In this document: in pieces, positions 1,196 through 42,312 of the stretch
Layout of the letters: the number at the start of each line of letters is the position of its first letter
Position numbering within the stretch: the first letter of the stretch is position 1
DNA from: an uncultured Alphaproteobacteria bacterium
Lineage (GTDB): Bacteria > Pseudomonadota > Alphaproteobacteria > CAAGCB01 > CAG-977
DNA: 42,354 nucleotides
Assembly: GCA_944393745.1 (NCBI GenBank)
Contig: CALYBD010000020.1
Span: 1 to 42,354, forward strand
Direction: 5' to 3'
Position numbers and translations under genes: made by a program
Notes under the pieces: generated by a model
Told to the model about the DNA's origin: nothing
Seen by the model: only the letters and a program-made list of their open reading frames with translations
Databases searched by the model: none

Positions 1196-1349
1196 AAGTT
1201 CTTATATAAAACGCTTTTAACATACATTTTATTTTGAAAATCATTTCATAAAAACAATAATCGTAATATTAAAGGAAAGTTTGTTGACTTTAATAAAACG
1301 AATCAGGCAAACTATAAGATATTGTTATTTAAATAGTTAGAGGTATTTG

Positions 1350-2903
1350 ATGAAACTGGAAATTTTAATGGCTTTGGGCGGCCTGTTGTTATTGATGTGC
1401 GTGTTTGCAAATAAAATTTCCAGTAAATTGGGAATACCGTCTTTGTTGGTTTTTCTGGCTGTCGGTATGATTGCCGGTTCCGACGGGGCAGGGATTCAAT
1501 TTTATTCGGCAGAGCTGAGTAATTATATCGGTTCGTTCGCGTTGGCTTTTATTTTGTTTTCGGGCGGGCTGGAATCCGGCTGGCCATCGATCAAAAGCGT
1601 TTTGGGGCGCGGTACGTTGCTGGCAACGGTCGGTGTTGCTCTGACGGCATTATTTATGTTCATACTGTCTTATTATTTATTGGAAATGCCTTTTGCGATC
1701 GCGTTGCTGCTCAGCGTGATTTTATCGTCTACCGATGCTCCGGCCGTATTTAATATTTTAAGGACAAACGGATTGTATCTGAATAATCCGAAGCTGAAAT
1801 CCATTTTGGAATATGAATCCGGATCAAACGACCCGATGGCGGTGATTTTGTCTGTCGGCGCCATTGCTTTTTTAACGGCCGGAGACCGGTTTTCAGTATG
1901 GAATTTGACGGCAATGCTGTTTTTACAAATGGGCCTGGGCGTCGTTTTCGGTTATGTGATGGGCATTTTGGCATTAGCTTTTTTAAAAAAGTTTTCTTTT
2001 GTTTATCAGGGACTTTACCCGGTTTTCGGGGTCAGTGTGGTGTGTTTGATTTTTTCGTTGACACAACTGGCCGGCGGCAGCGGTTATCTGGCTTTGTATA
2101 TTGCCGGAATAGTTTTGGGGAACGCTTCATACCCGTATAAAAATCCGTTTATACAATTTCAATCGGCTTTGTCCTGGGTGATGCAAATCTTGATGTTCCT
2201 GACACTGGGGTTATTCGTAAACCCGAAAGAACTGGGCGAATTATTCGGAACGGCTTTAAGCGCAACGGTCTGTCTGGTGATGATTGCGCGTCCTTTGGTC
2301 GTGTTTTTATGCCTGGCCAAAAGCGAATACACCCGCAGCGAAAAACTGTTCATCAGCTGGGCGGGATTAAAAGGTGCCGTACCGATTATTTTGGCGACGT
2401 ACCCGCTGATGAACGATATTGAAGATGCGCGCTATTTGTTTAATGTTATTTTCTTTTTGGTCCTTGTTTCGGTGATGCTGCAGGGGCGAACATTGGGGTC
2501 TTTGGCCGGATTGCTGAATTTAAGCCATGACACCCCGACACCGGAAGAATTACGTGAAATGGGGGATCCGATCGGTGTGCCGACGGGAGATAAAGAACCT
2601 GAAATTTTTGTTTCGTTGAAATCTTCGTTTCTGCGTTTTGTTATGGGAACAATCAAAGGAGTACTGTCTTTGATTGACTGGGAAATTCATGGCGAAGACG
2701 AAAATTTGCCGGCTGCCTTGAAACTGTGGAATAACATTAAGAAAAAAACATATATCTTTTTAAAACAGCTGCATGCGTACTGTTTGGAAAAAGATCTGGA
2801 CGAAGCACGCAAAAAGGCAGAATCCGATCTGGCCGCAAAATCGGCGGCGGAGGAAAAAAACCGCATGTTTATTCGTGTCCGACATATGGATAATGATAAG
2901 TAA
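1350..2903 (+). CDS. cvrA: CPA1-family K+(Na+)/H+ antiporter, NhaP2/CvrA-like
   Basis: An integral membrane exchanger of 517 residues with about a dozen hydrophobic segments in the first 395. It carries CPA1 hallmarks: SSTDAPAVFNILR near residue 125 and an ESGSNDP motif near residue 155 that contains the ion-binding Asn-Asp pair. The C-terminal 120 residues are soluble and charged. They are shorter than the TrkA-C-type tail of E. coli CvrA and I cannot recognise that domain. The expected role is proton-coupled potassium or sodium export for pH and ion balance at the inner membrane. A TTG at 1347 is in frame, but the ATG at 1350 sits six bases after AGAGG and is preferred. It appears monocistronic. 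Confidence 0.85.
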   Translation: MKLEILMALGGLLLLMCVFANKISSKLGIPSLLVFLAVGMIAGSDGAGIQFYSAELSNYIGSFALAFILFSGGLESGWPSIKSVLGRGTLLATVGVALTALFMFILSYYLLEMPFAIALLLSVILSSTDAPAVFNILRTNGLYLNNPKLKSILEYESGSNDPMAVILSVGAIAFLTAGDRFSVWNLTAMLFLQMGLGVVFGYVMGILALAFLKKFSFVYQGLYPVFGVSVVCLIFSLTQLAGGSGYLALYIAGIVLGNASYPYKNPFIQFQSALSWVMQILMFLTLGLFVNPKELGELFGTALSATVCLVMIARPLVVFLCLAKSEYTRSEKLFISWAGLKGAVPIILATYPLMNDIEDARYLFNVIFFLVLVSVMLQGRTLGSLAGLLNLSHDTPTPEELREMGDPIGVPTGDKEPEIFVSLKSSFLRFVMGTIKGVLSLIDWEIHGEDENLPAALKLWNNIKKKTYIFLKQLHAYCLEKDLDEARKKAESDLAAKSAAEEKNRMFIRVRHMDNDK

Positions 2904-3024
2904 TTTTCTGTTTTGAACAGATGCCGATAAATTTTATTGCACGCTTGTGTAATAAAAAATTCATAATTTCATGTAACAAAAACAGTTAAAAATCAAACAG
3001 AGATAAGTGTTTTTCAAGTAACGA

Positions 3025-3038
3025 GGGGGGGGGGGGGG
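3025..3038 (+). repeat. G14 homopolymer tract upstream of the first pilin-like gene
   Basis: Fourteen consecutive G residues in an otherwise AT-rich intergenic region, ending 57 bases before the ATG at 3096 and about 20 bases before an AT-rich element (TAATAA, about 3058-3063) that could be a -10 box. Tracts of this length slip readily during replication and are a classic basis of phase variation. Neither of the two other pilin copies has one. An assembly or sequencing artefact is possible. Confidence 0.9.
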
Positions 3039-3095
3039 CTTTTTCTTTGTTTTTATGTAATAATAAGCAATTAAAATATTGAACGGAGAAATACA

Positions 3096-3476
3096 ATGAA
3101 TAAAAAGATTTTGTTTTATTTGCTGGCGTTGTTCTTATTTTTTGTTTTTATGCCGGACGCCTTTGCAAGGGACGGGTATATTGAAATGTATGACGGAAGA
3201 ACCCCGACTACAGTTATAAATATGGGCGTGAAACTATTATACAATGTCATCGGGGTTGTTATGGTTCTGGGCGGTTTCGGGTTGATCGGAATTGGTGTCG
3301 GTGCCGTTTTCGGCAAAGTAAATTGGAAATGGGCGGCTTATTTGGCCTTTGGTTTATTTGTTTGTGCAATGTTGTTCGGAGTAATCGGATATTTCACCGG
3401 CGGTGCCCTCAGTCAATTTCAGTTGTTGTATGATACAATGGGAGCTCCTGTTGCGACGATTACGGCTTCAAAATAA
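3096..3476 (+). CDS. Small secreted two-TM protein, TrbC/VirB2-like pilin, copy 1
   Basis: A 126-residue protein with a signal peptide (basic MNKK, hydrophobic core, cleavage after DAFA near residue 24). It then has a short variable segment (25-46) and two hydrophobic helices (about 48-68 and 76-96) joined by the small basic loop GKVNWKW. The polar tail is shared with copy 2. Signal peptide plus helical hairpin with a basic loop is the architecture of VirB2/TrbC conjugative pilins, and the size fits. No other type IV secretion gene is present, so the role as a pilin is inference. Two paralogues follow downstream. A G14 tract lies upstream and a strong terminator follows. The ATG is preceded by CGGAG. 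Confidence 0.75.
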   Translation: MNKKILFYLLALFLFFVFMPDAFARDGYIEMYDGRTPTTVINMGVKLLYNVIGVVMVLGGFGLIGIGVGAVFGKVNWKWAAYLAFGLFVCAMLFGVIGYFTGGALSQFQLLYDTMGAPVATITASK

Positions 3477-3501
3477 AGTTGTATGGATTAATTGAAAAAA
3501 T

Positions 3502-3529
3502 CCCCTGTTTTTTACAGGGGACTTTTTTT
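3502..3529 (+). terminator. Rho-independent terminator of pilin copy 1
   Basis: The stem CCCCTG / CAGGGG (3502-3507 and 3515-3520) with a T-rich loop is followed by a run of seven T. It lies 25 bases after the stop codon of pilin copy 1. Confidence 0.9.
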
Positions 3530-3540
3530 ATGGCAGATCA

Positions 3541-3662
3541 TTAAACGGCGATGAAGTTTGATGCCGTGAAAGTCCGATTTGCCGGCCTTGTCAATTAATG
3601 TCTGCGCATTATCCGAACAGCAATCCGGATAATAGCGTGTTTCCATACATCAATTGCCGCCG
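3541..3662 (-). pseudogene. Decayed fragment of the sodB 3' end (copy A)
   Basis: Read on the minus strand, this segment matches the last third of the intact sodB at 5017-5619. A 21-base stretch (3587-3607) is identical to 5062-5082 and encodes AQTLIDK. Flanking codons for the (W)EHAYY, QNRRPDYAQ and C-terminal regions are recognisable but carry substitutions, small deletions and a one-base frameshift after the DK codons, so no frame survives. The terminal TTA aligns with the sodB stop. It lies at the same place relative to pilin copy 1 as real sodB does to pilin copy 3, which marks it as part of an old tandem duplication. Confidence 0.85.
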
Positions 3663-3831
3663 GCAGTGACAAATATCATTGTCTGTCGCTTCGTGTCATA
3701 AAAAATTCACACGATAGGTATAAAAAATCATTATAAATCAAGTAGATATTTTTTTTGAGTGATAAAGAAAAGAACAGAAATTTCTTTATATTTGGTATAT
3801 AATATAATTAAGGGAATAATAGGAGGGTAAA

Positions 3832-4209
3832 ATGAATAAAAAAACTATATTTTATTTTCTGGCGTTATTTTTATTTTTTGCTTTTATGCCGGATGCCTTT
3901 GCAAGGGACTATATTTCTTTGGGAGGTACCAAGGCAAATGTAGTTTTTATGGATAAATGTTTTGAGGTATTATATTACGTTATCGGGGTTGTCATGGTTT
4001 TGGGCGGTTTCGGGTTGATCGGAATCAGCGTCGGCGCCATTTTCGGCAAAGTAAATTGGAAGTGGGCAGCTTATTTGGCGTTTGGTTTGTTTATTTGTGC
4101 AATGTTGTTCGGAGTAATCGGATATTTCACCGGCGGTGCCCTTGATCAACAACAGTTGTTGTATGATACAATGGGAGCTCCTGTTGCGACGATTACGGCT
4201 TCAAAATAA
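3832..4209 (+). CDS. Small secreted two-TM protein, TrbC/VirB2-like pilin, copy 2
   Basis: A 125-residue paralogue of the gene at 3096. The signal peptide ends in MPDAFA and the two hydrophobic helices and basic loop (GKVNWKW) are nearly identical to copy 1. The last 29 residues differ from copy 1 at only three positions. The segment between signal peptide and first helix (about 25-46) is unrelated in sequence to that of copies 1 and 3, so variation is concentrated in one short, presumably exposed region. It has a very strong ribosome binding site (AGGAGG five bases before the ATG) and its own promoter-like TATAAT at 3798-3803. It lacks the poly-G tract and is followed by a terminator. Confidence 0.75.
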   Translation: MNKKTIFYFLALFLFFAFMPDAFARDYISLGGTKANVVFMDKCFEVLYYVIGVVMVLGGFGLIGISVGAIFGKVNWKWAAYLAFGLFICAMLFGVIGYFTGGALDQQQLLYDTMGAPVATITASK

Positions 4210-4234
4210 AGTTGTATGGATTAATTGAAAAAAT

Positions 4235-4262
4235 CCCCTGTTTTTTACAGGGGACTTTTTTT
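4235..4262 (+). terminator. Rho-independent terminator of pilin copy 2
   Basis: Same CCCCTG / CAGGGG hairpin and T run as at 3502-3529, located 25 bases after the stop of pilin copy 2. Confidence 0.9.
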
Positions 4263-4273
4263 ATGGCAGATCA

Positions 4274-4395
4274 TTAAACGGCGATGAAGTTTGATGCCGT
4301 GAAAGTCCGATTTGCCGGCCTTGTCAATTAATGTCTGCGCATTATCCGAACAGCAATCCGGATAATAGCATGTTTCCGTACACCAATTGCCGCCG
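4274..4395 (-). pseudogene. Decayed fragment of the sodB 3' end (copy B)
   Basis: Nearly identical to the fragment at 3541-3662, with the same frameshift and deletions relative to intact sodB. The 21-base exact match to sodB lies at 4320-4340. Because both fossils share the same disabling changes, the fragment decayed first and was then copied together with the pilin gene, or the two copies were homogenised by gene conversion. Confidence 0.85.
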
Positions 4396-4559
4396 GCAGT
4401 GACAAATATCATTGTCTGTCGCTTCGTGTCATAAAAAATTCACACAGTGTCTTTAAAAAATTATTAAAAATCAATAGGATAGATTTTTTCTAAAAAAGAA
4501 CATTTTTGTATTATTGTGTTATCATTATAAGATGAACTCATTAAAAGAGGAAAAATCTG

Positions 4560-4940
4560 ATGAATAAAAAATACTCTTGGTTAGTCGCCTTATTTGTAAT
4601 TTTTATTTTTATGCCGGATGCTTTTGCTGCAAGAGATCATTTAGGTGTACAGGGAAACAACGCATTTGAATTATTCTATTTTATGGGTGAAGGTTTATTG
4701 TACCAAGTTATCGGCGTTGTGATGATTTTGGGCGGTTTTGGATTAGTCGGACTCAGTGTTGGTGCTATTTTCGGTAAAGTAAACTGGAAATGGGCAGCTT
4801 ACTTGGCATTCGGCTTATTCATTTGTGCTATGACTTTTGGAGTTTTAGGATATTTTACCGGAGATCAATTATTTCTTCAACCTCAGATGCTTTATGATAC
4901 AGCTGGAAATCCTACGGTTACAATTACTCCTTCAGAATAG
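4560..4940 (+). CDS. Small secreted two-TM protein, TrbC/VirB2-like pilin, copy 3
   Basis: A 126-residue third paralogue with signal peptide ending MPDAFA, a distinct variable segment (about 25-47), then the conserved hairpin with GKVNWKW between two hydrophobic helices. It is the most divergent copy, with a different tail (YDTAGNP instead of YDTMGAP) and more A/T-ending codons, so it probably split off before copies 1 and 2 separated. It is the only copy facing an intact sodB, which makes it the likely ancestral location. GAGG precedes the ATG, and TATAAG at 4526-4531 may serve as the -10 box. Confidence 0.75.
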   Translation: MNKKYSWLVALFVIFIFMPDAFAARDHLGVQGNNAFELFYFMGEGLLYQVIGVVMILGGFGLVGLSVGAIFGKVNWKWAAYLAFGLFICAMTFGVLGYFTGDQLFLQPQMLYDTAGNPTVTITPSE

Positions 4941-4963: not shown

Positions 4964-4991
4964 AGCTCTTACATGCGTAAGAGCTTTTTTT
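4964..4991. terminator. Bidirectional terminator between pilin copy 3 and sodB
   Basis: A perfect nine-base stem (4964-4972 with 4977-4985) around an ATGC loop has A residues before it and T residues after it, so it can stop transcription from both convergent genes. It differs in sequence from the terminators of copies 1 and 2. Confidence 0.9.
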
Positions 4992-5016: not shown

Positions 5017-5619
5017 TTAAGCGGCTGTAAAATTTGACGCTGCAAAATGCCAATTTGCCAGCTTGTCAATTAATGTCTGCGCGTAATCCGGACGACGGTT
5101 TTGATAGTCCAGATAATAAGCGTGTTCCCAAACGTCAATTGCCAGCAGCGGTGTTAAATGGTGGGCGACCGGCGTGTCGGCATTGCCGGTTTTCATGATT
5201 TTGATTTCGCCTTTGTCCGCAACAACCCAGGCCCAGCCGCTGCCAAATTGAGAAACGGCCGCCGCTTTTAATTCTTCTTTGAATTTTTCTTCGTTGGCAA
5301 AAGCGCGCAGAACGGCTTCTTTGAATTTGCCGTCGGGAAGGGCGCCGCCGCCGTTCGGGGTCAGGCTGCTCCAGAAAAACGTATGGTTCCACGTCTGCGC
5401 GGCGTTATTAAAAATACCGACCTTGTCGGTTTTGCCGGCTGTTTTTAAAATGATGGTTTCCAGATTATCGCCGGCCAGATCCGTGTCTTTAATCAGGTTG
5501 TTTAAATTTGTAATATAAGCTTGATGATGTTTTCCGTAATGAAATTCAAGCGTTTTTGCCGACATATACGGTTCTAACGCTTCTTTTTCAAAAGGCAGTT
5601 TCGGTAATTCAAAAACCAT
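5017..5619 (-). CDS. sodB: Iron superoxide dismutase
   Basis: A cytoplasmic enzyme that converts superoxide to oxygen and hydrogen peroxide. The 200-residue length is normal. Metal ligands are visible: His27 (HYGKHH), His79 in AQTWNHTFFW, and the Asp and His of IDVWEHAYY. The Gln in AAQTWNH and the FGSGWAW motif favour the iron type. An in-frame ATG 33 bases further upstream gives a non-homologous N-terminus. The ATG at 5619 yields the standard MVFELPKLPFEK start and has AAAGGA upstream. It follows hpnE by about 40 bases on the same strand, so it may be read with the trmFO-hpn genes. Two decayed copies of its 3' end lie at 3541 and 4274. Confidence 0.95.
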   Translation of the reverse strand: MVFELPKLPFEKEALEPYMSAKTLEFHYGKHHQAYITNLNNLIKDTDLAGDNLETIILKTAGKTDKVGIFNNAAQTWNHTFFWSSLTPNGGGALPDGKFKEAVLRAFANEEKFKEELKAAAVSQFGSGWAWVVADKGEIKIMKTGNADTPVAHHLTPLLAIDVWEHAYYLDYQNRRPDYAQTLIDKLANWHFAASNFTAA

Positions 5620-5662: not shown

Positions 5663-6790
5663 TTAAAAAAAGAAGTAAAGTGATCTTTTGTTTATGCTTT
5701 TTAAAATCAATTGGGCCGCTTTGATGCCGGAACGCACACTGCCTTCAATGGTGCAGGGCAGTCCCGTTGCCGTCGCGTCACCGGCCAAAAAAACAATGTC
5801 GGATCCGATATCCGCTTCCAATCGCCGGCGATTGATTGCGCGGGTTTGCAGAATCGTTGCGCGTTTTTCCGCAATGACGCGATATTCCGGCAGATCAACC
5901 CCCAGATTCAGCAAAGCCGATAATTCGTGCCAGACTAATGAGGCCGCGGAATCCGGAGAAAATTTTTCCAGCAAAGCGTTGGCGGCGCTGATCGTTACGG
6001 ACAAAATGCCGTTTTTAATGAATATCCAATGTCCGGTTAGGCCGATTAAACCGGCAAAAGAATATCCGTCCGGTAAACACGCGTCCGTTCTGTAGTGAAT
6101 ATTGACGATTGTCTGATAAGGCAATTCCGATGCTCCGACAACCAGACGGGACAGATTTTGGGGATCCGTAGCCAGAATTACCCGGTCATTTTGTTGCAGG
6201 TTAATTGTTTCACCGTCAAAAAAAATCAGGCTTTTTTCTTTGATTCGGCGCAGACGTTTACCAAAATGCAAAGAGACATTTTTGTGTTTTAAAAAACGTT
6301 CAACAGGCGCAATAACGCAATCATATAATGACGGATCAGCCAGATAAATCTGCCCGTTTTTTTCTCCGAAACATTTTAAAGCGGTCTTTAAAAATAAAAA
6401 AGTATCGACTTGATGAACAGGAGTGTTCATCACGGATTCGCATAACAGAGAATACAATGCCGGCAGTTTGCGCAAAGCCGTTATCGGGCGGGCGGTATTA
6501 ATTTGAAAGGATTCGCCGTTTTTGTTTAAAAACAAGATTTGATTGCCGGCGTTTTTTAACGGCGTTTCGCACGGGCATTGCGCCAGCATTTCCAATAAAG
6601 CCGTATTTGCCCCCAGCATTAAATGCGTTCCGTTGTCAATCCGGGCGTTCAGTCGTTTGTCGAAAAAAGAATGACATCGTCCGCCCGCACGCGCCGCCGC
6701 GTCGTATAAAACAACGGGAAGCCCTGCTTGCGTCAACGTAAACGCGGCAGATAAACCGGATACCCCCATGCCGATAATATGAACCGTCAT
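5663..6790 (-). CDS. hpnE: Hydroxysqualene dehydroxylase (FAD-dependent, HpnE)
   Basis: A 375-residue flavoprotein of the amine oxidase / phytoene desaturase type. The N-terminal dinucleotide-binding motif GMGVSGLSAAFTL and the following GGRCHS block bind FAD, and a second FAD motif (FLAGDATATGLPCTIEGSV) lies near the C-terminus. In the HpnCDE route HpnE reduces hydroxysqualene to squalene. The assignment rests on motif content and on its place directly after hpnD and hpnC. The hpnD stop and hpnE start are one base apart, so translation is probably coupled. The C-terminal tail (RSLYFFF) is short. Confidence 0.9.
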   Translation of the reverse strand: MTVHIIGMGVSGLSAAFTLTQAGLPVVLYDAAARAGGRCHSFFDKRLNARIDNGTHLMLGANTALLEMLAQCPCETPLKNAGNQILFLNKNGESFQINTARPITALRKLPALYSLLCESVMNTPVHQVDTFLFLKTALKCFGEKNGQIYLADPSLYDCVIAPVERFLKHKNVSLHFGKRLRRIKEKSLIFFDGETINLQQNDRVILATDPQNLSRLVVGASELPYQTIVNIHYRTDACLPDGYSFAGLIGLTGHWIFIKNGILSVTISAANALLEKFSPDSAASLVWHELSALLNLGVDLPEYRVIAEKRATILQTRAINRRRLEADIGSDIVFLAGDATATGLPCTIEGSVRSGIKAAQLILKSINKRSLYFFF

Positions 6791-6791
6791 T

Positions 6792-7673
6792 TTATTTTCC
6801 GAACAGCCAAATGCGCAAAGCCGTTAAGATCATATAAGCTTTTGACGGTTTGGCCCGGGGGGATAAAACGTCCCAGCCCCGTTTTTCCATCAGATCGAAT
6901 ATTTTTTTGTAAACGCATTTCATGATAACGGCCGGTTTCATTTGTTTGGCGTTTAATAAAGCCAGAGCCGCATCGGCTTCGGTGAAACGCAACGCGGCCT
7001 GTTCGGCCAATGCCGTGCGAGCTGTTTTTAATTCCGGGTCTTTTAATACGCGGCTGAGCGGTGTGTCGTCCGTGATTTCGATCCCGGCTTTGGCCAGGCA
7101 TTCCTGCGGCATGTACAGCCGTCCCAATTCCATGTCTTCTTCCATATCGCGCAGAATATTTGTCAGCTGCAGCGCTTCGCCCAATGTGACGGCAAAGCGT
7201 TGCGCCGTTTCGGAATAATCGCCGAAAATGCAGACGGACAACAACCCGACGGCTCCGGCAACCCGGCGACAGTACAGCTGCAGTTCCGTCATCGTCGGCG
7301 CGCGCATACCGTCCGGGATATCCATTTCCATGCCGTCAATCAGGGCGATAAATTCTTCTTTTGGCAAAGCGAACTTTTTAATCGGTTCAATCAGAGCTTT
7401 GGCAACAATTTGTTCGGGTTCGTTACCGTTATACAATCGATCGATGTCGTCCCGCCAGATTTTCAGATTTTTTTTCTTTTCTTCCGTCGGGGCGGGTTCA
7501 TCGGCAATGTCGTCAATTTCACGACAAAAAGCATAAACGGCAAACATGGCATTGCGCTTGTCTTTGCCTAACAGTTTCATCGCCGGGTAGAACGAGGATC
7601 CCGAACGTTTGACAATGTCATTGACCTGCCCGATTATTTCTTCGGCGGTAAAAGATCTTTTTTCCTGATGCAT
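6792..7673 (-). CDS. hpnD: Presqualene diphosphate synthase (HpnD)
   Basis: A 293-residue trans-isoprenyl synthase of the squalene/phytoene synthase family. It condenses two farnesyl diphosphates to presqualene diphosphate. Both Mg-binding aspartate motifs are present: REIDDIADE near residue 50 and NILRDMEED near residue 175. A longer reading frame begins 39 bases upstream, but the ATG at 7673 (MHQEKRSF) gives the family-like start. The first 40 bases overlap the end of hpnC in another frame, which implies translational coupling. It sits in the minus-strand operon trmFO-hpnC-hpnD-hpnE. Confidence 0.92.
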   Translation of the reverse strand: MHQEKRSFTAEEIIGQVNDIVKRSGSSFYPAMKLLGKDKRNAMFAVYAFCREIDDIADEPAPTEEKKKNLKIWRDDIDRLYNGNEPEQIVAKALIEPIKKFALPKEEFIALIDGMEMDIPDGMRAPTMTELQLYCRRVAGAVGLLSVCIFGDYSETAQRFAVTLGEALQLTNILRDMEEDMELGRLYMPQECLAKAGIEITDDTPLSRVLKDPELKTARTALAEQAALRFTEADAALALLNAKQMKPAVIMKCVYKKIFDLMEKRGWDVLSPRAKPSKAYMILTALRIWLFGK

Positions 7674-8518
7674 GATATTTTCTTTCTTCTCAGACCGCCC
7701 CAAACGCCCCACATGCAGGCAATGATCCAGTCTGATTTTTTTAAACCGATTTTGCGTTTTAAAACGTCTTTCTTTTTTAACCGTTTAACCAATCTTTGCG
7801 CCAGACGGAAAATAACGCAGACTTCCATGCGCAAACCGCGGTTGACAATCACCAAAGGCAGGGACGATCCTTCCACCAACAGACTTTCAATGGCATCGGT
7901 CGTGCGGTTAAAAACGCTTTTTAAAGCCGTGCAGCTTTGGCTGTCGTCCAAAGCTTCGTATTTGATTTGAGCTTCTTTAAACCAGTCTTTGGGCAGGTAG
8001 ATCCGATGTTTTTCCTGATAATCTTCTTTGCAGTCCTGTAAATGGTTGTTCATTTGCAAGGCAGCACACAAAGCATCTGACGGCCAGTATGCCGTCGGAT
8101 TTTCCCCGTGCAAATCCAGCATAAATCGACCGACACTGCCGGCCGACCAGCGGCAATACGCCATAACGTCTTCCCAAGTATGATACGTATGCCCTTCGCT
8201 GTCCTGGCGAAAAGCCTTTAACAAATCCAAGGCGTGCTGATTGGTAACGCCGCATTGTTCCAGACTGTTTTTCAGCGTTTCCGCGCATTTTGTCGCGTCA
8301 TCGGATTCTTCTTCGCCCAACAAAACCCGTTCCAGGCGGTTTAAACGATCCAGTTTTTCCTGTTTTGAAATTTCCGTTGAATCGGCAATATCGTCTGCCG
8401 TCCGCGCGAAATCGTAAAAGGCCGCGACATGAGGACGCAACTTTTTAGGGATCAGACACGATCCGACAGGGAAATTTTCATCGGCGGCATTTTTTGTTCG
8501 TTTAATTCGTTTTTCCAT
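7634..8518 (-). CDS. hpnC: Hydroxysqualene synthase (HpnC)
   Basis: A 294-residue squalene/phytoene synthase family enzyme that turns presqualene diphosphate into hydroxysqualene. The first aspartate motif reads ARTADDIAD (about residue 38-46), and the second is the HpnC-typical [11 protein letters not shown] (about 157-167). The C-terminal 40 residues are unusually basic and include a short hydrophobic stretch with tryptophans (ACMWGVWGG), which could help membrane contact. The gene overlaps trmFO by 17 bases upstream and hpnD by 40 bases downstream. Confidence 0.92.
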
Positions 8519-9866
8519 TTATTTCTGCCTTTTGTATCCATACGGCCAAATCGGCCAACGCCCGTTCGCTTTGGGCACGTTTGCGGTCAAGCCCTTTGAT
8601 CTTTTTCTTTCCTTCGGGAACGGGCGGGGGCGGGAACAGCCCGAAATTGATGTTCATCGGTTGAAAACAGCTGTCGTTCGCATTGACCGTAATATGGCGC
8701 AACATTGCCCCCAAAGCCGTTGTTTCCGGCGGCAAAACAGGTGTTTTCCCTTCGGCTTCCCGTACGGCGAACAATCCGGCCATCAATCCGACCGCGGCAC
8801 TTTCGACGTATCCTTCGCAGCCCGTGACCTGTCCGGCAAGACGGATATTGGGGCGCGCTTTTAAACGCAGCGTTTCGTCCAATACTTTGGGCGAACAAAC
8901 GAACGTATTGCGATGAATTCCTCCGAACCGAACAAAAGAAGCATTTTCTAACCCCGGAATGGTTTTAAAAAGACGTTTTTGTTCACCGTAAGTCAGCTTT
9001 GTTTGAAAACCGACCAGATTTAACAGCGTTCCCTGCCGGTTTTCTTTGCGCAGCTGAACAACGGCATAAGGCCTGGCGCCCGTATGCGGATTCGTCAGAC
9101 CGACAGGCTTCATCGGTCCGAACGCCAGTGTTTCACGCCCGCGTTCCGCCATGACTTCAATCGGCAGGCAACCTTCGAAATAAGGTGTGTCTTTTTCCCA
9201 TTCTTTAAAAGCTACTTTCTCGCCGGATAATAAAGCGTCAATAAAAGCATCGTATTGTTCTTTGTCCAACGGACAATTGATATAATCGTCTCCGTTGCCT
9301 TTGTCGTATCGGGATTGTTTCCAAGCCTTGGTCATATCAACCGAATCAGCGGTGACAATCGGGGCAATGGCGTCAAAAAAATGCAACAGATCTTCGCCGC
9401 CCGCCGCCGCCTGAATTTTTTGCGCCAATTCCGGCGTTGTCAACGGCCCCGTCGCAATAATAAAAAAACCGTCCTTTGCATCGGGCAAATCCGTTAATTC
9501 CTCCCGTTCAATCGAAACCAGAGGGTTTTGCCGCAGTTTTTCTTCCACGGTTTTGGAAAAAGCCTCCCGATCAACGGCCAAAGCACCGCCGGCCGGAACG
9601 GCTGTCTGATCCGCCGCGGCCAAAATCAAAGAACCGCAACGGCGCATTTCTTCGTGCAGCAACCCGACGGCATTGTGACCGGCATCATCGGAACGCAAAG
9701 AATTTGAACAAACCAATTCGGCCAAACCGTCCGTTCTGTGGGCGGGAGTCTGTCTGTTCGGGCGCATTTCACGTAAAATAACAGCCTGTCCGGACCGGGC
9801 AATCTGCCAGGCGGCTTCGCAGCCGGCCAGTCCTGCTCCGATAACGGTAATCGGTTTTTGCGACAT
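8502..9866 (-). CDS. trmFO: Methylenetetrahydrofolate--tRNA-(uracil-5-)-methyltransferase
   Basis: A 454-residue folate- and FAD-dependent enzyme that makes 5-methyluridine at position 54 of tRNA. The N-terminal FAD motif ([14 protein letters not shown]) is followed by REMRP and the family motif [23 protein letters not shown] lies near the C-terminus. Length is typical. It is the first gene of the minus-strand group and overlaps hpnC by 17 bases. There is no evident functional link between tRNA methylation and squalene synthesis, so the pairing is probably chance operon packing. The intergenic region up to 9964 must hold its promoter, divergent from the rhodanese operon. Confidence 0.95.
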
Positions 9867-9964
9867 CTTTTCTTTATCCCTTCACAGAATCGGTTTATTG
9901 TTGTCTTGTATATCTTAAAGATAACTATATACTTAAACAAACATAATTTTTTGCGAGAAATGAA

Positions 9965-10423
9965 ATGAACGGAAATTTTGTGTATTTTTTAATTGCTGCC
10001 GTTGCAGTCTATGGTTTGCTGGTTTACGTTTTCCCCCGCGTGAAACGTTTGTTGCGCGGCCGGGACGTCGTTTATATCGATCCCAAGGTGTTGCAGGAAA
10101 AAATGGCTAAAAAAGAAGATATGCTGCTGATTGATATCAGAACGCCTTCGGAATTTTATAATATGTTCGGCCATATTGACGGTGCGATTAACCTGCCGTT
10201 TAAAGAATTTATGATCCGTATAAACGAAACCGCCGATCGTTTGGCCGGTTTTAAAAATATTCCCGTCGTCATTATCGGTCTGCGTGATGAAAACAACGTC
10301 TTTAAGGCATACCAAAATCTGAAACGAAAGGGATTTTCGGATGTCAGTATTTTAAATTACGGTGTTTCTCAATGGCTGCGTCAGGGACTGCCGACGGTAG
10401 AACGTAATGTCCGCAAAGTATAA
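9965..10423 (+). CDS. Membrane-anchored rhodanese-like protein lacking the catalytic cysteine
   Basis: A 152-residue protein with one N-terminal transmembrane helix (about residues 5-23), a short basic stretch, and a rhodanese domain. The domain shows LLIDIRTPSEF, HIDGAINLPF and a C-terminal LNYGVSQWLRQGLP. In active rhodaneses the strand ending in VVVYC-x-x-G-x-R-S supplies the cysteine; here the same place reads VVIIGLRDENNV, with no Cys. It is therefore unlikely to transfer sulfur and may act as a binding or scaffold domain. The stop overlaps the next gene by 17 bases, tying it to the pentapeptide-repeat protein. Confidence 0.85.
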   Translation: MNGNFVYFLIAAVAVYGLLVYVFPRVKRLLRGRDVVYIDPKVLQEKMAKKEDMLLIDIRTPSEFYNMFGHIDGAINLPFKEFMIRINETADRLAGFKNIPVVIIGLRDENNVFKAYQNLKRKGFSDVSILNYGVSQWLRQGLPTVERNVRKV

Positions 10424-12698
10424 AAAAAGCCTTTTGTTTTTAGGCGCGTTTTTGTTTTCTTCCGCCGTTATTGCTGCGGTTGAACCCAAAAATGTGATTG
10501 TTTTTTTTCTGCCCGTTCGTGATAATGCCGGCATTCATTCGCTGCAAGAAGCCGTCCAGACGCCTTTGCCTGTCGGCGTTTCTGCCGGGTTGCGGGCAGG
10601 CAAAGACTTTGAAAAAGACCCCAATCAGGAAAAACACGGCATAAATACACCTGTCGGGGTTTCTTTGTATGATAAAGGAAGCGTTCCTTTGGATCAGGCA
10701 ACCGAAAATATTTTGGCGCCGGCCCGGGTGTTAATTCTGCCGCCGGAAGAAATAAAAAAAAGACAATCGGAAAAAGTCGCCGGCCTGCCCGAAAGCGTTA
10801 CGCCGGACAAAATTCGCGTTTTCCCGATGACGGATCCCGCCGCGGAAATGAAAAAAGCGGCGCAGGAACGTCCGATTGTCGTTCGGTATCAAAAATTAAA
10901 ACCGCCGGCGGATACCCGCGAAAAAAGACCGCGTGACGAATCGCAATGGACAGGCTGGATTCTGCGCCAGTTGCAGGAATGTAATATGGACGCCCAAACG
11001 GTTCTGCCGACACTTTATTGGTTGACGGCCAATCGAAAATTAACGGACGGCAAAACCGATTGCGATATGAAAGCGGCTGTTGCCGGATATCTGCGCAAAT
11101 GCCACCCGTGGCCGGTCGTTTACTATACGCCGGTCAATAACGATGTTCCTGTTCGTCCGGCCGTTCAGATGGCGGCCGAATATCTGGAAAGTGCTTTTGA
11201 TTCGGGCAATTGTCCCGTTCTGGATTTGTCGGGCGTTAATTTTGAAAAAACGGAATTTCTGGAAGGAAGTTTGAAAAATGCGGATTTTTCAAATTCTTAT
11301 TTCCAAGAAGCGACTTTTTCCGGCATTGATTTGTCCGGGGCTGTTTTTAATCAGGCACAAATGGATAATGTCTTGTTTCAGGACGTTAATCTGTCGACGG
11401 CCGTATTCGAAAAAACACGCATGAAGTACGCGCATCTGCACCGGGTGAACGCCGTTTCGGTTAAATTTGATGCTGCCGATCTGCAGAACACGCAATTCCG
11501 TGATGTTAATTTTTCATTGTCTTCGTTTAACAATGCCGTTTTGCAAAATACCGCCTGGTTTGATGTGCGTGCATACAAAATGAATGCCGGACAGGCTGAT
11601 TTTTCAAAAGCGGGGTTTGACAACGTTCTGCTTAATCAGCTGCAGGCCGACAAAACAAATTTTGACAATATTTCGTGCAAAGAATGCGTGTTTGACGGCG
11701 CGGATTTGAAAAGAGCGGATTTTTTCCGGGCTGTTTTTGACGATGCATCATTTGATCGTTCCGATCTGTCATATGCCCGGTTTCATTCCGCCGTTTTCGA
11801 AGACGATATTTCGTTTGATGATGTGTATTTGTACAAGGCGGATTTCAAAAATGTTGATTTAAAACCGCTCGGTAAGCTGCCGATTGAACGGCTGACGCAA
11901 ATGCAGATTGATCGCAGAACGATTTTACCGGATCATTTGTCGGATTTCGATTCCGCGGTTTTTGATGTCGAACTGGAAAGCGCCGATATGTCCGCGACAA
12001 AAGAAGTCAATCGCTATACATGTTCGAAAAGAACGTGTGAAGAACGTCTGCTGGGGCGGGCAACCAATCAAAATCTGGCCGTGCGTGCCATGACGATCCT
12101 GAGCAACCCGTCGGAAAGTCTGAATAAGCAGATTTGGGCTTTGTGTACAATGGGGTGCATAGCCCGGGAAGATAAAAAACTGGAAAATTCCCAGATTGAT
12201 TTTTTGGCGAACTTTATTAAGCGCAAACGCCCCTGGAATCCCGAAACGGATTTGTTTAAGCCGTATCGGCCGATAGAACCCGAAGTTCAAATGGCTCTGT
12301 ATGTTTTAACCGATCCGCAGTTGCAGCGTGATTTGGGGCATGATGTTGATTTAACGGGAACGGATCTGCGAACAGCCGATTTGTCCGGCGCGGATCTGCG
12401 GACGGTTAATTTGTCGGGATCGCATCTGGGAGGCACCGATTTGCGCCATTCAAAAACAGACCAGACATATAGGCGTTTTGATCAGGCTGTCATTGATGAA
12501 TTTACGTTGTTTCCGACAGGAATGGAGCTTTTTAAACCTTTCCGGTTGCCCGATTCGGAAACGCCGCCCTGGTGGAAACCGAAAACTGTTCGCGTGATCC
12601 GTGACGGAACGCATTTATGGACAGTGACGACAGAGGATATTCCTTTTTCGGACGAATTAATTGTTGCGCCCGAAAACAAACAGGAGAAAAAGAAATGA
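10407..12698 (+). CDS. Exported pentapeptide-repeat protein
   Basis: A 763-residue protein with a signal peptide (hydrophobic residues 8-20, cleavage probably after AVIAA). Residues up to about 260 are non-repetitive, with a paired-cysteine region. From about 270 to 485 come many A(D/N)LXX-type pentapeptide repeats (LSGVNFEKTEF, NADFSNSYF, LSGAVFNQAQ and others). A spacer with four cysteines follows, then a second short repeat block (LTGTDLRTADLSGADLRTVN) near residue 650. Such repeats form a right-handed quadrilateral helix and usually act by protein contact rather than catalysis. The predicted location is the periplasm. It overlaps the rhodanese-like gene, and the next gene starts within its stop codon. 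Specific function is unknown. Confidence 0.85.
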   Translation: MSAKYKKSLLFLGAFLFSSAVIAAVEPKNVIVFFLPVRDNAGIHSLQEAVQTPLPVGVSAGLRAGKDFEKDPNQEKHGINTPVGVSLYDKGSVPLDQATENILAPARVLILPPEEIKKRQSEKVAGLPESVTPDKIRVFPMTDPAAEMKKAAQERPIVVRYQKLKPPADTREKRPRDESQWTGWILRQLQECNMDAQTVLPTLYWLTANRKLTDGKTDCDMKAAVAGYLRKCHPWPVVYYTPVNNDVPVRPAVQMAAEYLESAFDSGNCPVLDLSGVNFEKTEFLEGSLKNADFSNSYFQEATFSGIDLSGAVFNQAQMDNVLFQDVNLSTAVFEKTRMKYAHLHRVNAVSVKFDAADLQNTQFRDVNFSLSSFNNAVLQNTAWFDVRAYKMNAGQADFSKAGFDNVLLNQLQADKTNFDNISCKECVFDGADLKRADFFRAVFDDASFDRSDLSYARFHSAVFEDDISFDDVYLYKADFKNVDLKPLGKLPIERLTQMQIDRRTILPDHLSDFDSAVFDVELESADMSATKEVNRYTCSKRTCEERLLGRATNQNLAVRAMTILSNPSESLNKQIWALCTMGCIAREDKKLENSQIDFLANFIKRKRPWNPETDLFKPYRPIEPEVQMALYVLTDPQLQRDLGHDVDLTGTDLRTADLSGADLRTVNLSGSHLGGTDLRHSKTDQTYRRFDQAVIDEFTLFPTGMELFKPFRLPDSETPPWWKPKTVRVIRDGTHLWTVTTEDIPFSDELIVAPENKQEKKK

Positions 12699-13750
12699 AA
12701 CATACTTTAATGACGGCGTTTTTTTTGGCGATCTTGACTTTTTCCGTTAATGCGCAGGAAACGGATACGGACGTTTTGCGTGCCCGGGCTTCAAACGGGG
12801 ATATTCAGGCGGCGGTGCTGTTGGGAAAATATTACTATGATATGGAAAAAGATCCAAAGCAGGCAGAAAAATGGGTCAGTGTTGCCGCTGATGCCGGCGA
12901 TGCCGAAGCTTTGTATTATCTGGCACGTATTTATGACGAATCGCGGGAAGGCAAACACCCGAATAAAGAGGTCGTTGCCGTTTTGGAAAAATCGGCCGGG
13001 CAGGGATATGCGCCGGCTCAGGTTATGTTGGGCAAGATATATCAGTTCGGTCGCCGCGGTATTCCGAAAGATTTGAAAAAAGCCAGAATGTGGTACGAAA
13101 TGGCTGCAGCCAAAGGAGCCAATGAAGCGATGGCTCAAATTAATGTCATTTACCAACAGGCCGGAGATTCCGCAGCCAAAGCCGCCATGGTTGACGATAA
13201 TGTCGAATGGCTGGAACTGGGGGTTAAACAGGGAAACGTTGAAGCAGCGTTAAATTTGGGAAAGATGGCTGAAACGGGACGCGGCGTTCCGCAGGATTAT
13301 AAACGCGCGGCAGAGCTTTATCAAATGGCGGCCGAAGAGGGAATTGTTCAGGCTCAATCGGCTTTGGGCAGGCTGTATGCAAACGGAGACGGTGTCGATC
13401 AGGATAATTCAAAGGCTGTTTTCTGGCTGAGTAAAGCCGCCGAAGAAGGGTATGTCGAAGCACAAAGAAAACTGGCACAGGTTTATACGTATCAGTATCC
13501 GGATCCCGCACAGGCCTATGCCTGGCAGGTTGTTTCTTTGTCGGCCTTATTCCCGCAGGCAAAAGACCTGGTGGCCGTTTCTCCTGATCTGGAACGACTG
13601 ATTCGTTCAATGACGCCGGAACAGATTAAGGACGGTCAGTCTTTGGCGGTCAAACTGGTCGAAAAGATTAAAATTAATAAAAGAAAACAGGAAGAAGAAC
13701 AAAAAAAGCATATTGAATATCTGCTGCAATATCGGCAGGAAACGGAATAA
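12695..13750 (+). CDS. Exported Sel1-repeat (TPR-like) protein
   Basis: A 351-residue protein. The ATG at 12695 overlaps the stop of the preceding gene (ATGA) and follows AGGAG; it gives a clean signal peptide ending VNAQE. The mature part contains Sel1-like repeats of about 36 residues, e.g. AAVLLGKYYYD, AEALYYLARIYDES, AALNLGKMAETGRGVPQDYKRA and AQSALGRLYANGDGVDQDNSKA. Sel1 arrays form alpha-solenoids that recruit partners and are common in secreted or periplasmic regulators. The C-terminus is charged and probably helical. It is the third gene of the rhodanese / pentapeptide / Sel1 operon and is followed by a terminator. Confidence 0.88.
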   Translation: MKHTLMTAFFLAILTFSVNAQETDTDVLRARASNGDIQAAVLLGKYYYDMEKDPKQAEKWVSVAADAGDAEALYYLARIYDESREGKHPNKEVVAVLEKSAGQGYAPAQVMLGKIYQFGRRGIPKDLKKARMWYEMAAAKGANEAMAQINVIYQQAGDSAAKAAMVDDNVEWLELGVKQGNVEAALNLGKMAETGRGVPQDYKRAAELYQMAAEEGIVQAQSALGRLYANGDGVDQDNSKAVFWLSKAAEEGYVEAQRKLAQVYTYQYPDPAQAYAWQVVSLSALFPQAKDLVAVSPDLERLIRSMTPEQIKDGQSLAVKLVEKIKINKRKQEEEQKKHIEYLLQYRQETE

Positions 13751-13762
13751 CGCAATAAAAAA

Positions 13763-13786
13763 AGCCCCGGTTGGGGCTTTTTTTTT
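13763..13786. terminator. Bidirectional terminator between the Sel1 gene and elbB
   Basis: The stem AGCCCC / GGGGCT around a GGTT loop (13763-13778) is flanked by seven A and about nine T, so it serves both convergent genes. Confidence 0.9.
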
Positions 13787-13789
13787 ATT

Positions 13790-14446
13790 TCAGTTCAGTA
13801 AAGCCATTAAATCCTTTACGGCGTTTGATGTGCTTTGTGCAACGTCTTTCAGACTTTTATCCAGCATATAGCACGGCGTCGTGATAATTTTGTTTTTCCG
13901 GTCAATACAAACCTGAGCCGATGAACAAATTTCCGGTGTGCCGCCCATGGCTTTGATGGCCATGGAGGTTTCGGGATCATTTCCGATTGTTACCGTGATG
14001 TTTCCCAAAATACGGGTAATCAAAACCGGCGCAATGCACAGCGCGACAATCGGTTTGCCGGCGGCGTGCATTTCTTTGACGACGCGTTCCACGTCCGGAT
14101 GAACAAAACAGTTTGTGCCCTTATGCGCAAAGTCGCACAAATTTAAAACGGCTCCCATGCCGCCCGGAAACAAAACGGCATCATAATCCGAAACTTTGAA
14201 CGATTTCAAAGACGAGATATTGCCGCGCGCTATTCTGGCGGCTTCGACGGGCATACGCCTTTTTTCGTCGGAAGGTTGTTTTGTTACATGATTGATGACG
14301 ACGCTTTGTTCGCCTTCGGGGGCAAAGCAATGATAAGTCCCGCCCTGTTGTTCAATTGCCAGCATGGCCGTAACGGCTTCATGAATTTCGGATCCGTCCA
14401 TGACGCCGCAACCGGATAAGACAACGGCGATTTTTTTTGTGTTCAT
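13790..14446 (-). CDS. elbB: ElbB family DJ-1/PfpI-like glyoxalase
   Basis: A 218-residue protein of the ElbB branch of the DJ-1/PfpI superfamily. It shows the start VVLSGCGVMDGSEIHE, the HCFAPE region, and the nucleophile elbow VALCIAPVL with the conserved cysteine near residue 137. E. coli ElbB has weak glyoxalase activity and was once linked to isoprenoid synthesis. The physiological role here is uncertain. It is divergent from thrC across about 100 bases and convergent with the Sel1 gene. Length matches the family. Confidence 0.9.
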   Translation of the reverse strand: MNTKKIAVVLSGCGVMDGSEIHEAVTAMLAIEQQGGTYHCFAPEGEQSVVINHVTKQPSDEKRRMPVEAARIARGNISSLKSFKVSDYDAVLFPGGMGAVLNLCDFAHKGTNCFVHPDVERVVKEMHAAGKPIVALCIAPVLITRILGNITVTIGNDPETSMAIKAMGGTPEICSSAQVCIDRKNKIITTPCYMLDKSLKDVAQSTSNAVKDLMALLN

Positions 14447-14486
14447 GTGTTTCTCCTCACAGTGGTAAAAATCTTTGATGTTGTAA

Positions 14487-14513
14487 TTATATACAAGATG
14501 TATTTATATACAA
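14487..14513 (+). promoter_or_regulatory. Direct repeat TTATATACAA in the elbB/thrC divergent promoter region
   Basis: The ten-base sequence TTATATACAA occurs twice (14487-14496 and 14504-14513) with a 17-base period, in the middle of the gap between the divergent elbB and thrC genes. It could be overlapping -10 elements or a regulator site. No experimental basis is visible. Confidence 0.35.
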
Positions 14514-14543
14514 TAATCGTAAAGTATTGTAACGGAGTTGGTT

Positions 14544-15938
14544 TTGAAATACATCAGTACGCGGGGAAATGCTCCCGCCATAGGATTCGAAGATGTCTTG
14601 CTGGCAGGCCTGGCCCCGGACGGCGGTCTGTATGTGCCCGAAGAATATCCGCAGTTTTCACCGGACAGTATGCGCCAAATGCGTTCTTTGACTTATGCCG
14701 AACTGGCTGCGGAAGTCATGGCGCCGTTTACCGAAGGTTGCCTGGATAAAAAAGATTTGCTTGATATTGCAGTGCAGGCTTACGGCGGTTTTTCTCATAC
14801 GGCGGTCGCGCCGTTAAAGCAAATCAGCGATTCCTTATGGGTTATGGAGCTGTTTTACGGACCGACGCTGGCGTTTAAAGATTACGCGCTGCAGGTGGTC
14901 GGGCGTATGTTTGATAAAGTTCTGAAACGAACAAACAAACGTATTACGATTGTCGGGGCGACCTCAGGAGATACCGGATCGGCAGCGATCGAATCCTGCA
15001 AAGGCTGCGACCATCTGGATATCTTTATTTTGCACCCGCACAACCGCGTTTCCGAAGTCCAACGTCGCCAGATGACAACAACGATCGCGCCGAATGTTTT
15101 TAATATCGCGCTGGAAGGGACTTTTGATGACTGTCAGTCGATTGTCAAAGCTTTGTTTTCTGACGAAGATTTTCGTACCAGACACAATCTGTCGGCCGTT
15201 AATTCAATCAACTGGGCCAGAATTATGGCGCAGATTGTTTATTATTTTCGCGCCGCTTTGGCTTTGGGCGCACCGGACAGAGAAGTGTCTTTCGCCGTAC
15301 CGACAGGCAATTTCGGCAATATTTTTGCCGGCTACGTTGCAAAACGTATGGGCTTGCCGATTAAAAAGCTGATACTCGGGTCTAACGAAAACGATATTTT
15401 GCCGCGTTTTTTGGAAACGGGCGTGATGGAAAAACGTGCGGTAAAACCGTCAATCAGTCCGTCCATGGATATTCAAGTGTCGTCTAATTTCGAACGTCTG
15501 CTGTTTGAAATGCTGGATCGCGATGCCGCGGCCGTTTCTCATTTAATGGAAACGTTTAAATATGAAAAAAGTTACGGCGTCGATACGGAAGTATTGAAAA
15601 AAATCAAAAATATTTTTGAAGGTGTCCGCTGTACGGACGAAGAAACAAAAATCGAAATCGGAAAAATTTATAAGGCTGCCGGTGAAATTGTTGATCCGCA
15701 TTCCGCCATTGGCTTTGTTGCCGCCGAAAAATTCGGTGAAACAGGGCTTCCTTGCATTGTTTTGGCAACGGCTCATCCGGCAAAGTTTCCCGTTCCCGTG
15801 CGCACCGCAACCGGTATCACGCCGTCTTTGCCGGCCAGGCTGTCTGATCTGATGACCAGACGGGAAAACTTTACCGTTTTGCCCAATACGCAGGACGCAA
15901 TTAAATATTTTATTGATACGGCTGAAAAAAGGATCTGA
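14544..15938 (+). CDS. thrC: Threonine synthase
   Basis: A 464-residue PLP enzyme that converts O-phosphohomoserine to threonine, the last step of the pathway. The PLP lysine lies in PTLAFKDYALQ near residue 110, and GATSGDTGSAAIE (about 140-152) holds the phosphate-binding loop. Two in-frame TTG codons compete for the start. The one at 14544 gives the family-typical MKYISTRGNAP and lies six bases after ACGGAG, whereas the one at 14538 would overlap that site. No ATG fits. It begins a plus-strand run that continues with an M16 peptidase five bases later. Confidence 0.95.
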   Translation: MKYISTRGNAPAIGFEDVLLAGLAPDGGLYVPEEYPQFSPDSMRQMRSLTYAELAAEVMAPFTEGCLDKKDLLDIAVQAYGGFSHTAVAPLKQISDSLWVMELFYGPTLAFKDYALQVVGRMFDKVLKRTNKRITIVGATSGDTGSAAIESCKGCDHLDIFILHPHNRVSEVQRRQMTTTIAPNVFNIALEGTFDDCQSIVKALFSDEDFRTRHNLSAVNSINWARIMAQIVYYFRAALALGAPDREVSFAVPTGNFGNIFAGYVAKRMGLPIKKLILGSNENDILPRFLETGVMEKRAVKPSISPSMDIQVSSNFERLLFEMLDRDAAAVSHLMETFKYEKSYGVDTEVLKKIKNIFEGVRCTDEETKIEIGKIYKAAGEIVDPHSAIGFVAAEKFGETGLPCIVLATAHPAKFPVPVRTATGITPSLPARLSDLMTRRENFTVLPNTQDAIKYFIDTAEKRI

Positions 15939-42298: not shown

Positions 42299-42312
42299 GG
42301 GGGGGGGGGGGG
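42299..42312 (-). repeat. G14 / C14 homopolymer tract upstream of the ankyrin gene
   Basis: Fourteen G on the plus strand (C14 on the coding strand), 38 bases before the ankyrin start and two bases from the hairpin at 42270-42296. Same length as the tract at 3025-3038. The remaining bases to 42354 show no gene. Confidence 0.9.

Follow-up and report, generated by a model that had tools for sequence, protein, structure and literature searches.

Organization of the locus was analyzed in a window of 42,354 nt, positions 1 to 42,354 of contig CALYBD010000020.1 from an uncultured alphaproteobacterium. Three pilin genes sit between a Na+/H+ antiporter gene and sodB, and relics of sodB lie 3' of pilins 1 and 2 (Table 1). 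The start of sodB was chosen from relatives whose protein begins MVFELP.

Table 1. Features of the pilin array and its flanks, in positions of the window
Feature	Position	Strand	Basis or remark
Na+/H+ antiporter gene	1347-2903	+	Pfam Na_H_Exchanger 2.2e-49; left neighbor anchoring the locus in relatives (synteny)
Left end of duplicated unit, leader stretch	2942-2963	+	CGCTTGTGTAATAAAAAATTCA; recurs at 3687-3709 and 4420-4442
Run of 14 G (G14)	3025-3038	+	About 57-71 bases upstream of pilin 1 start
Satellite pilin 1, VirB2/TrbC-like, 126 aa	3096-3476	+	Pfam TrbC 2.2e-6; ancestral variable segment retained
Hypervariable segment of pilin 1	3183-3248	+	Counterparts about 3910-3978 and 4632-4706
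Homogenized tract of unit 1	3420-3705		Spans the pilin 3' end, terminator, and relic and runs into the next leader; unit 2 has its counterpart
Terminator-like hairpin 3' of pilin 1	3501-3521	+	Identical hairpin 3' of pilin 2 at 4234-4254
sodB relic F1 (decayed copy of sodB 3' end)	3541-3674	-	Alignment to sodB and genome search
Relic/leader junction, copy 1	3675-3709		12 unassigned nt, then leader
Satellite pilin 2, 125 aa	3832-4209	+	Pfam TrbC 0.0016, below curated cut-off; 78% identity to pilin 1
sodB relic F2	4274-4407	-	Alignment to sodB; 97.7% identity to F1
Relic/leader junction, copy 2	4408-4442		Same breakpoint as copy 1
Satellite pilin 3, 126 aa	4560-4940	+	62% identity to pilin 1; Pfam TrbC 0.017, below curated cut-off; ancestral terminator retained
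Hairpin between pilin 3 and sodB	4964-4985		Ancestral type, present also in G004 (read, then aligned)
Intact sodB, Fe/Mn superoxide dismutase	5017-5619	-	Pfam Sod_Fe_C 1.5e-33, Sod_Fe_N 9.8e-29; copied stretch 5017-5159

The satellite pilins and the core secretion locus

Pilin 1 scored 28.2 bits against PF04956 (cut-off 27.9), and pilins 2 and 3 fell below the cut-off. Alignment with the core VirB2 proteins of relatives was compatible with a signal peptide and two hydrophobic helices; relative to those proteins, the satellites are extended both in the segment that follows the signal peptide and in the C-terminal tail. A low-confidence model of pilin 1 (pLDDT 61) placed helices at residues 3-17, 37-72, and 77-101. 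It had no significant structural match in the PDB, and the pilin profile matched none of the PDB sequences.

The core virB2 gene has virB3- and virB4-like neighbors on contig C6; the array, between the antiporter gene and sodB, is outside the type IV secretion system (T4SS) locus. The core T4SS (L051:3570-6738) encodes VirB2 (6433-6738), VirB3-like, and VirB4-like proteins on the minus strand. Beside it, a divergent cluster (7048-14778) encodes, by appearance only, a secretin-like lipoprotein and pilus-type proteins.

Decayed copies of the sodB 3' end and their source

F1 and F2 were copied from the final 143 nt of sodB and have since decayed. A preliminary description, made from the DNA letters, had matched them to the last third of the gene; the match is real, but its extent is the last quarter (143 of about 603 nt). 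Identity to sodB over 131 columns was 75% for F1 and 72.5% for F2, and local alignment scores were 127 and 115, with maxima of 43 and 42 among 1000 dinucleotide shuffles. The 21-base exact match that the description had pointed out (5062-5082, 3587-3607, and 4320-4340) is exact at those positions. It had also proposed comparing the sequence outside this match with shuffled sequence; with the 21-mer removed, both flanks of each relic still exceeded all 1000 shuffles. F1 matched only itself, F2 (98%), and sodB 5017-5159 (E 2.5e-15) in the whole genome, and no further relic copies were found there or in the relatives searched.

Both relics carry the same three lesions, a 1-nt insertion, a 9-nt deletion, and a 1-nt deletion, which break the frame and bear out the shared frameshift and deletions noted at first reading. 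Differences between relic and sodB fell on codon positions 1, 2, and 3 in the numbers 11, 8, and 14, compared with 8, 3, and 23 between the functional genes of this genome and its congener G004. This contrast, borderline when taken alone (p 0.05), fits a pseudogene that has lost constraint. Together with the frame-breaking indels, it agrees with the earlier view that the spare sodB piece decayed.

The unduplicated order, for which the preliminary description had looked to related genomes, was seen in G004, an uncultured alphaproteobacterial MAG (public contig CALXTY010000096.1). There, the antiporter gene, one pilin gene (2568-2945), a hairpin of the pilin 3 type, and sodB (3004-3603) follow one another on a single contig of 7275 bp (locus L044). 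No pilin gene was detected between the antiporter gene and sodB in five further congeners, G001, G002, G003, G005, and G006, all of which have both flanking genes. The pilin gene may have entered this gap before the split between this genome and G004, or the others may have lost it. The array is known from one genome, and so is the single-copy state. About 1.5 kb of other sequence separates sodB from the antiporter gene in G001 (L045:5270-6828), and an ORF within it (6116-6544, minus strand) resembles a GNAT acetyltransferase by reading only.

A maximum-likelihood tree placed both relics on the sodB branch of this genome with a support of 99, and three alternative placements were rejected (AU p 0.009, 0.009, and 0.003). 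Among the 34 sites that differ between the functional sodB genes, the relic has the base of this genome at 24 and that of G004 at 8. Judged from these placements, the relics derive from the sodB of their own lineage, after the split from G004. Horizontal transfer of the relics from another species or strain, as part of a foreign pilin unit, would account for how strongly units 1 and 2 differ from unit 3 in the terminator and at the 3' end of the pilin gene. Such an origin of the relics is rejected by the topology tests, which exclude a position outside this genome's sodB branch; the site counts oppose it as well, and the sequence occurs in no other genome searched. These results would still allow a donor strain very close to this one within the lineage, and overall we regard transfer as very unlikely.

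Junctions, homogenization, and the variable pilin segment

The match to sodB stops at 5159; in the relics, 12 unassigned nt intervene before a match to the pilin 1 leader begins. This leader match (2942-2963 against 3687-3709 and 4420-4442) scored 34; of 2000 shuffles, 1 scored at least as high for the first and none for the second. F1 and F2 are both truncated relics of the neighboring sodB, and they join the leader at an identical breakpoint. With a single common junction, one illegitimate event suffices, and the second copy can be attributed to recombination between units. Third codon positions differed at 44 of 100 sites between pilins 1 and 3 and at 14 of 44 between relic and sodB; the two do not differ (p 0.20), and their agreement within error is what one joint duplication of the pilin gene and the sodB end predicts.

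Comparison of units 1 and 2 gave five blocks of unequal divergence: 43% in the leader, 10.6% in the start and signal region, 62% in 3183-3248, 10.5% in the core, and 1% in 3420-3705. The last tract has 3 differences in 286 sites and a longest identical run of 217, which none of 5000 permutations matched, and its 1% departs from the 10.5% of signal and core with p 6e-7. Judging by this pattern, the 3420-3705 block, relic included, was homogenized after the core had diverged. The preliminary description had left the choice between a further copying and homogenization; both appear to have happened, a second copying followed by homogenization confined to the 3' part of the unit.

It had also seen the order pilin, terminator, and sodB end three times, with only the last sodB complete. 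The order holds, but the terminators are not alike: that of units 1 and 2 (TCCCCTG...CAGGGGA) is unlike that of pilin 3 (AGCTCTTACATGCGTAAGAGCT), and the terminator of the single-copy relative G004 resembles the pilin 3 type only. Pilin 3 retains the ancestral 3' flank and terminator. A duplication of pilin and sodB end was correctly read in that description, although pilin 3 cannot be named as the copied gene, since ancestral traits are split between pilins 1 and 3.

These data also bear on a possible function of the relics. Transcripts reading through the pilin terminator would be antisense to the end of the sodB mRNA and could damp sodB. The orientation is right, and the relics contain an uninterrupted stretch of 21-22 bases; among permutations of the same differences, 3% have one of this length. 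The remainder is decayed, with three indels, a terminator-like hairpin precedes each relic, and the relics match no known RNA family; within the window, none was found at gathering score. The F1-F2 identity extends into the neighboring terminator and pilin end, which indicates homogenization and not constraint on the relic. We consider an antisense role highly improbable and favor the reading of the relics as inert scars.

The tandem paralogs concentrate their diversity in one terminal segment (3183-3248). Over the 22 residues that follow the signal peptide, pilins 1 and 2 agree at 3 positions, compared with 51 of 54 in the core, whereas pilin 1 and the G004 pilin agree at 15 of the 22. A divergence of 62% over 66 bases, between flanks at about 10%, makes drift alone since the last common copy unlikely. 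The segment would have been either spared from homogenization or replaced, and a DNA search found no donor cassette for the segments of pilins 2 and 3 elsewhere in the genome. Selection appears to keep three pilin variants that differ here. By analogy with Anaplasma and Bartonella, the segment is probably exposed on the filament. The variants could supply the VirB/T4SS encoded elsewhere in the genome, with expression and incorporation into a filament both inferred.

Of the three units, only the first has the G14 tract ahead of its pilin gene, and the G004 pilin has none; from its sequence, the tract may be a promoter length switch. A homopolymer of about 14 G or C in a pilin promoter region recalls the poly-C tract of Bordetella pertussis fim2/fim3 (PMC10172299). 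Those genes belong to a different pilus class, and for G14 a change of length or a control of transcription is conjectural. The array could conceivably act as a small diversity generator, in which identical 3' ends, terminators, and relics anchor exchange of the exposed pilin segment and G14 switches the first copy on and off; we think this unlikely.

The genome has about 20 runs of 11 or more G, among them one in the window at 42299-42312. Many are no more than roughly 100 bases away from where a contig ends, a position that suggests either that the assembly broke at homopolymers or that run length varies within the population. A leader element, TTGTTACACTTTTGTTACAAATATG - C(12-16) - ATGTTTTTATAGATGAAG, has 15 matches, some of them partial, in this genome (G000), at loci L077:58-145, L076, L080, L081, L084, L086, L088, and L089 (contigs C6, C5, C14, C15, C30, C32, and C42); it was matched also in the congeners G001, G003, and G004. 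At L077 and L076, which were read through, it is followed after roughly 90 bases by the likely start of a Cys-rich protein that has a signal peptide, and two other proteins had weak matches to Giardia VSPs, below the cut-off. From their sequences, the genes with this element look like a family of phase-variable surface proteins.

History of the array and comparison with known pilin arrays

The locus would have started with a single satellite pilin gene between the antiporter gene and sodB, as in G004 today. Once this lineage had separated from that of G004, a unit of about 740 bp would have been duplicated in tandem by an illegitimate event, with its left end in the pilin leader (2942) and its right end within sodB, 143 nt from the 3' terminus of that gene (5159). 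This would have produced an extra pilin gene and a sodB tail that was truncated, had no promoter, and decayed free of constraint. The two units would then have undergone homologous recombination to give the third copy, with the same decayed tail and junction. Later, the 3' half of unit 2 (or 1) would have been overwritten by the other, through gene conversion or a second crossover, and the segment encoding the residues just after the signal peptide would have escaped. The order of the later events and the origin of the unit 1 and 2 terminators are inferred. Those terminators, unlike both unit 3 and G004, imply that the stretch was replaced by an unseen event, which counts against this account, as do the 12 unassigned nt at the junction. 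We give the history as a whole, from tandem duplication within the lineage, decay, recopying, and later homogenization to inert relics and retained pilin variants, a probability of roughly 0.87. The overall history in the preliminary description is supported, with the small corrections given above. An artifact of the draft assembly can be set aside as scarcely credible: the assembly is in 60 contigs that often end at homopolymers, but the three units differ throughout their 5' halves, assemblers tend to collapse diverged repeats and not to invent them, and the array lies well inside a 42-kb contig with outer flanks that match G004.

Variant VirB2 arrays have been described in pathogens. Anaplasma VirB2 paralogs have hypervariable segments towards the N-terminus and near the C-terminus (PMC3556328). 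As in those arrays, the pilins here are VirB2-like and in tandem, with variable copy number and with diversity in both of these regions, on either side of a core that in the satellites would likewise consist of two helices (PMC3556328). Unlike them, the present array is apart from T4SS genes, has three copies only, and carries relics of a neighboring gene in its spacers; its host groups with uncultured Alphaproteobacteria and was placed in the Rickettsiales by no test. Copies of Bartonella trwL diversify likewise (PMC2883598), and the two systems have in common a VirB2-type pilin, tandem duplication, fast diversification, and recombination among copies (PMC2883598). The trwL copies are inside the trw operon, whereas the copies here, between the antiporter gene and sodB, are outside the T4SS gene cluster. 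G049, from another alphaproteobacterial family, similarly has VirB2-like genes head to tail, four in number, but these are part of a T4SS locus, immediately 5' of a virB3-like gene (L017:1-1326, G049:C39). No sodB relic was found in the G049 genome.

This is ordinary growth of a gene array, unusually well recorded, and the array class is already known. The bacterium copied a pilin gene in tandem with the tail of a neighboring enzyme gene, and the decayed tails form a fossil record of how the array grew. Relics of a neighboring gene provide a neutral clock beside each copy; here, they set the age of the duplication apart from later homogenization and show one short pilin segment escaping while its surroundings were copied over. 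The known range of variant VirB2 arrays thereby grows beyond pathogens to include a poorly known lineage of uncultured Alphaproteobacteria.
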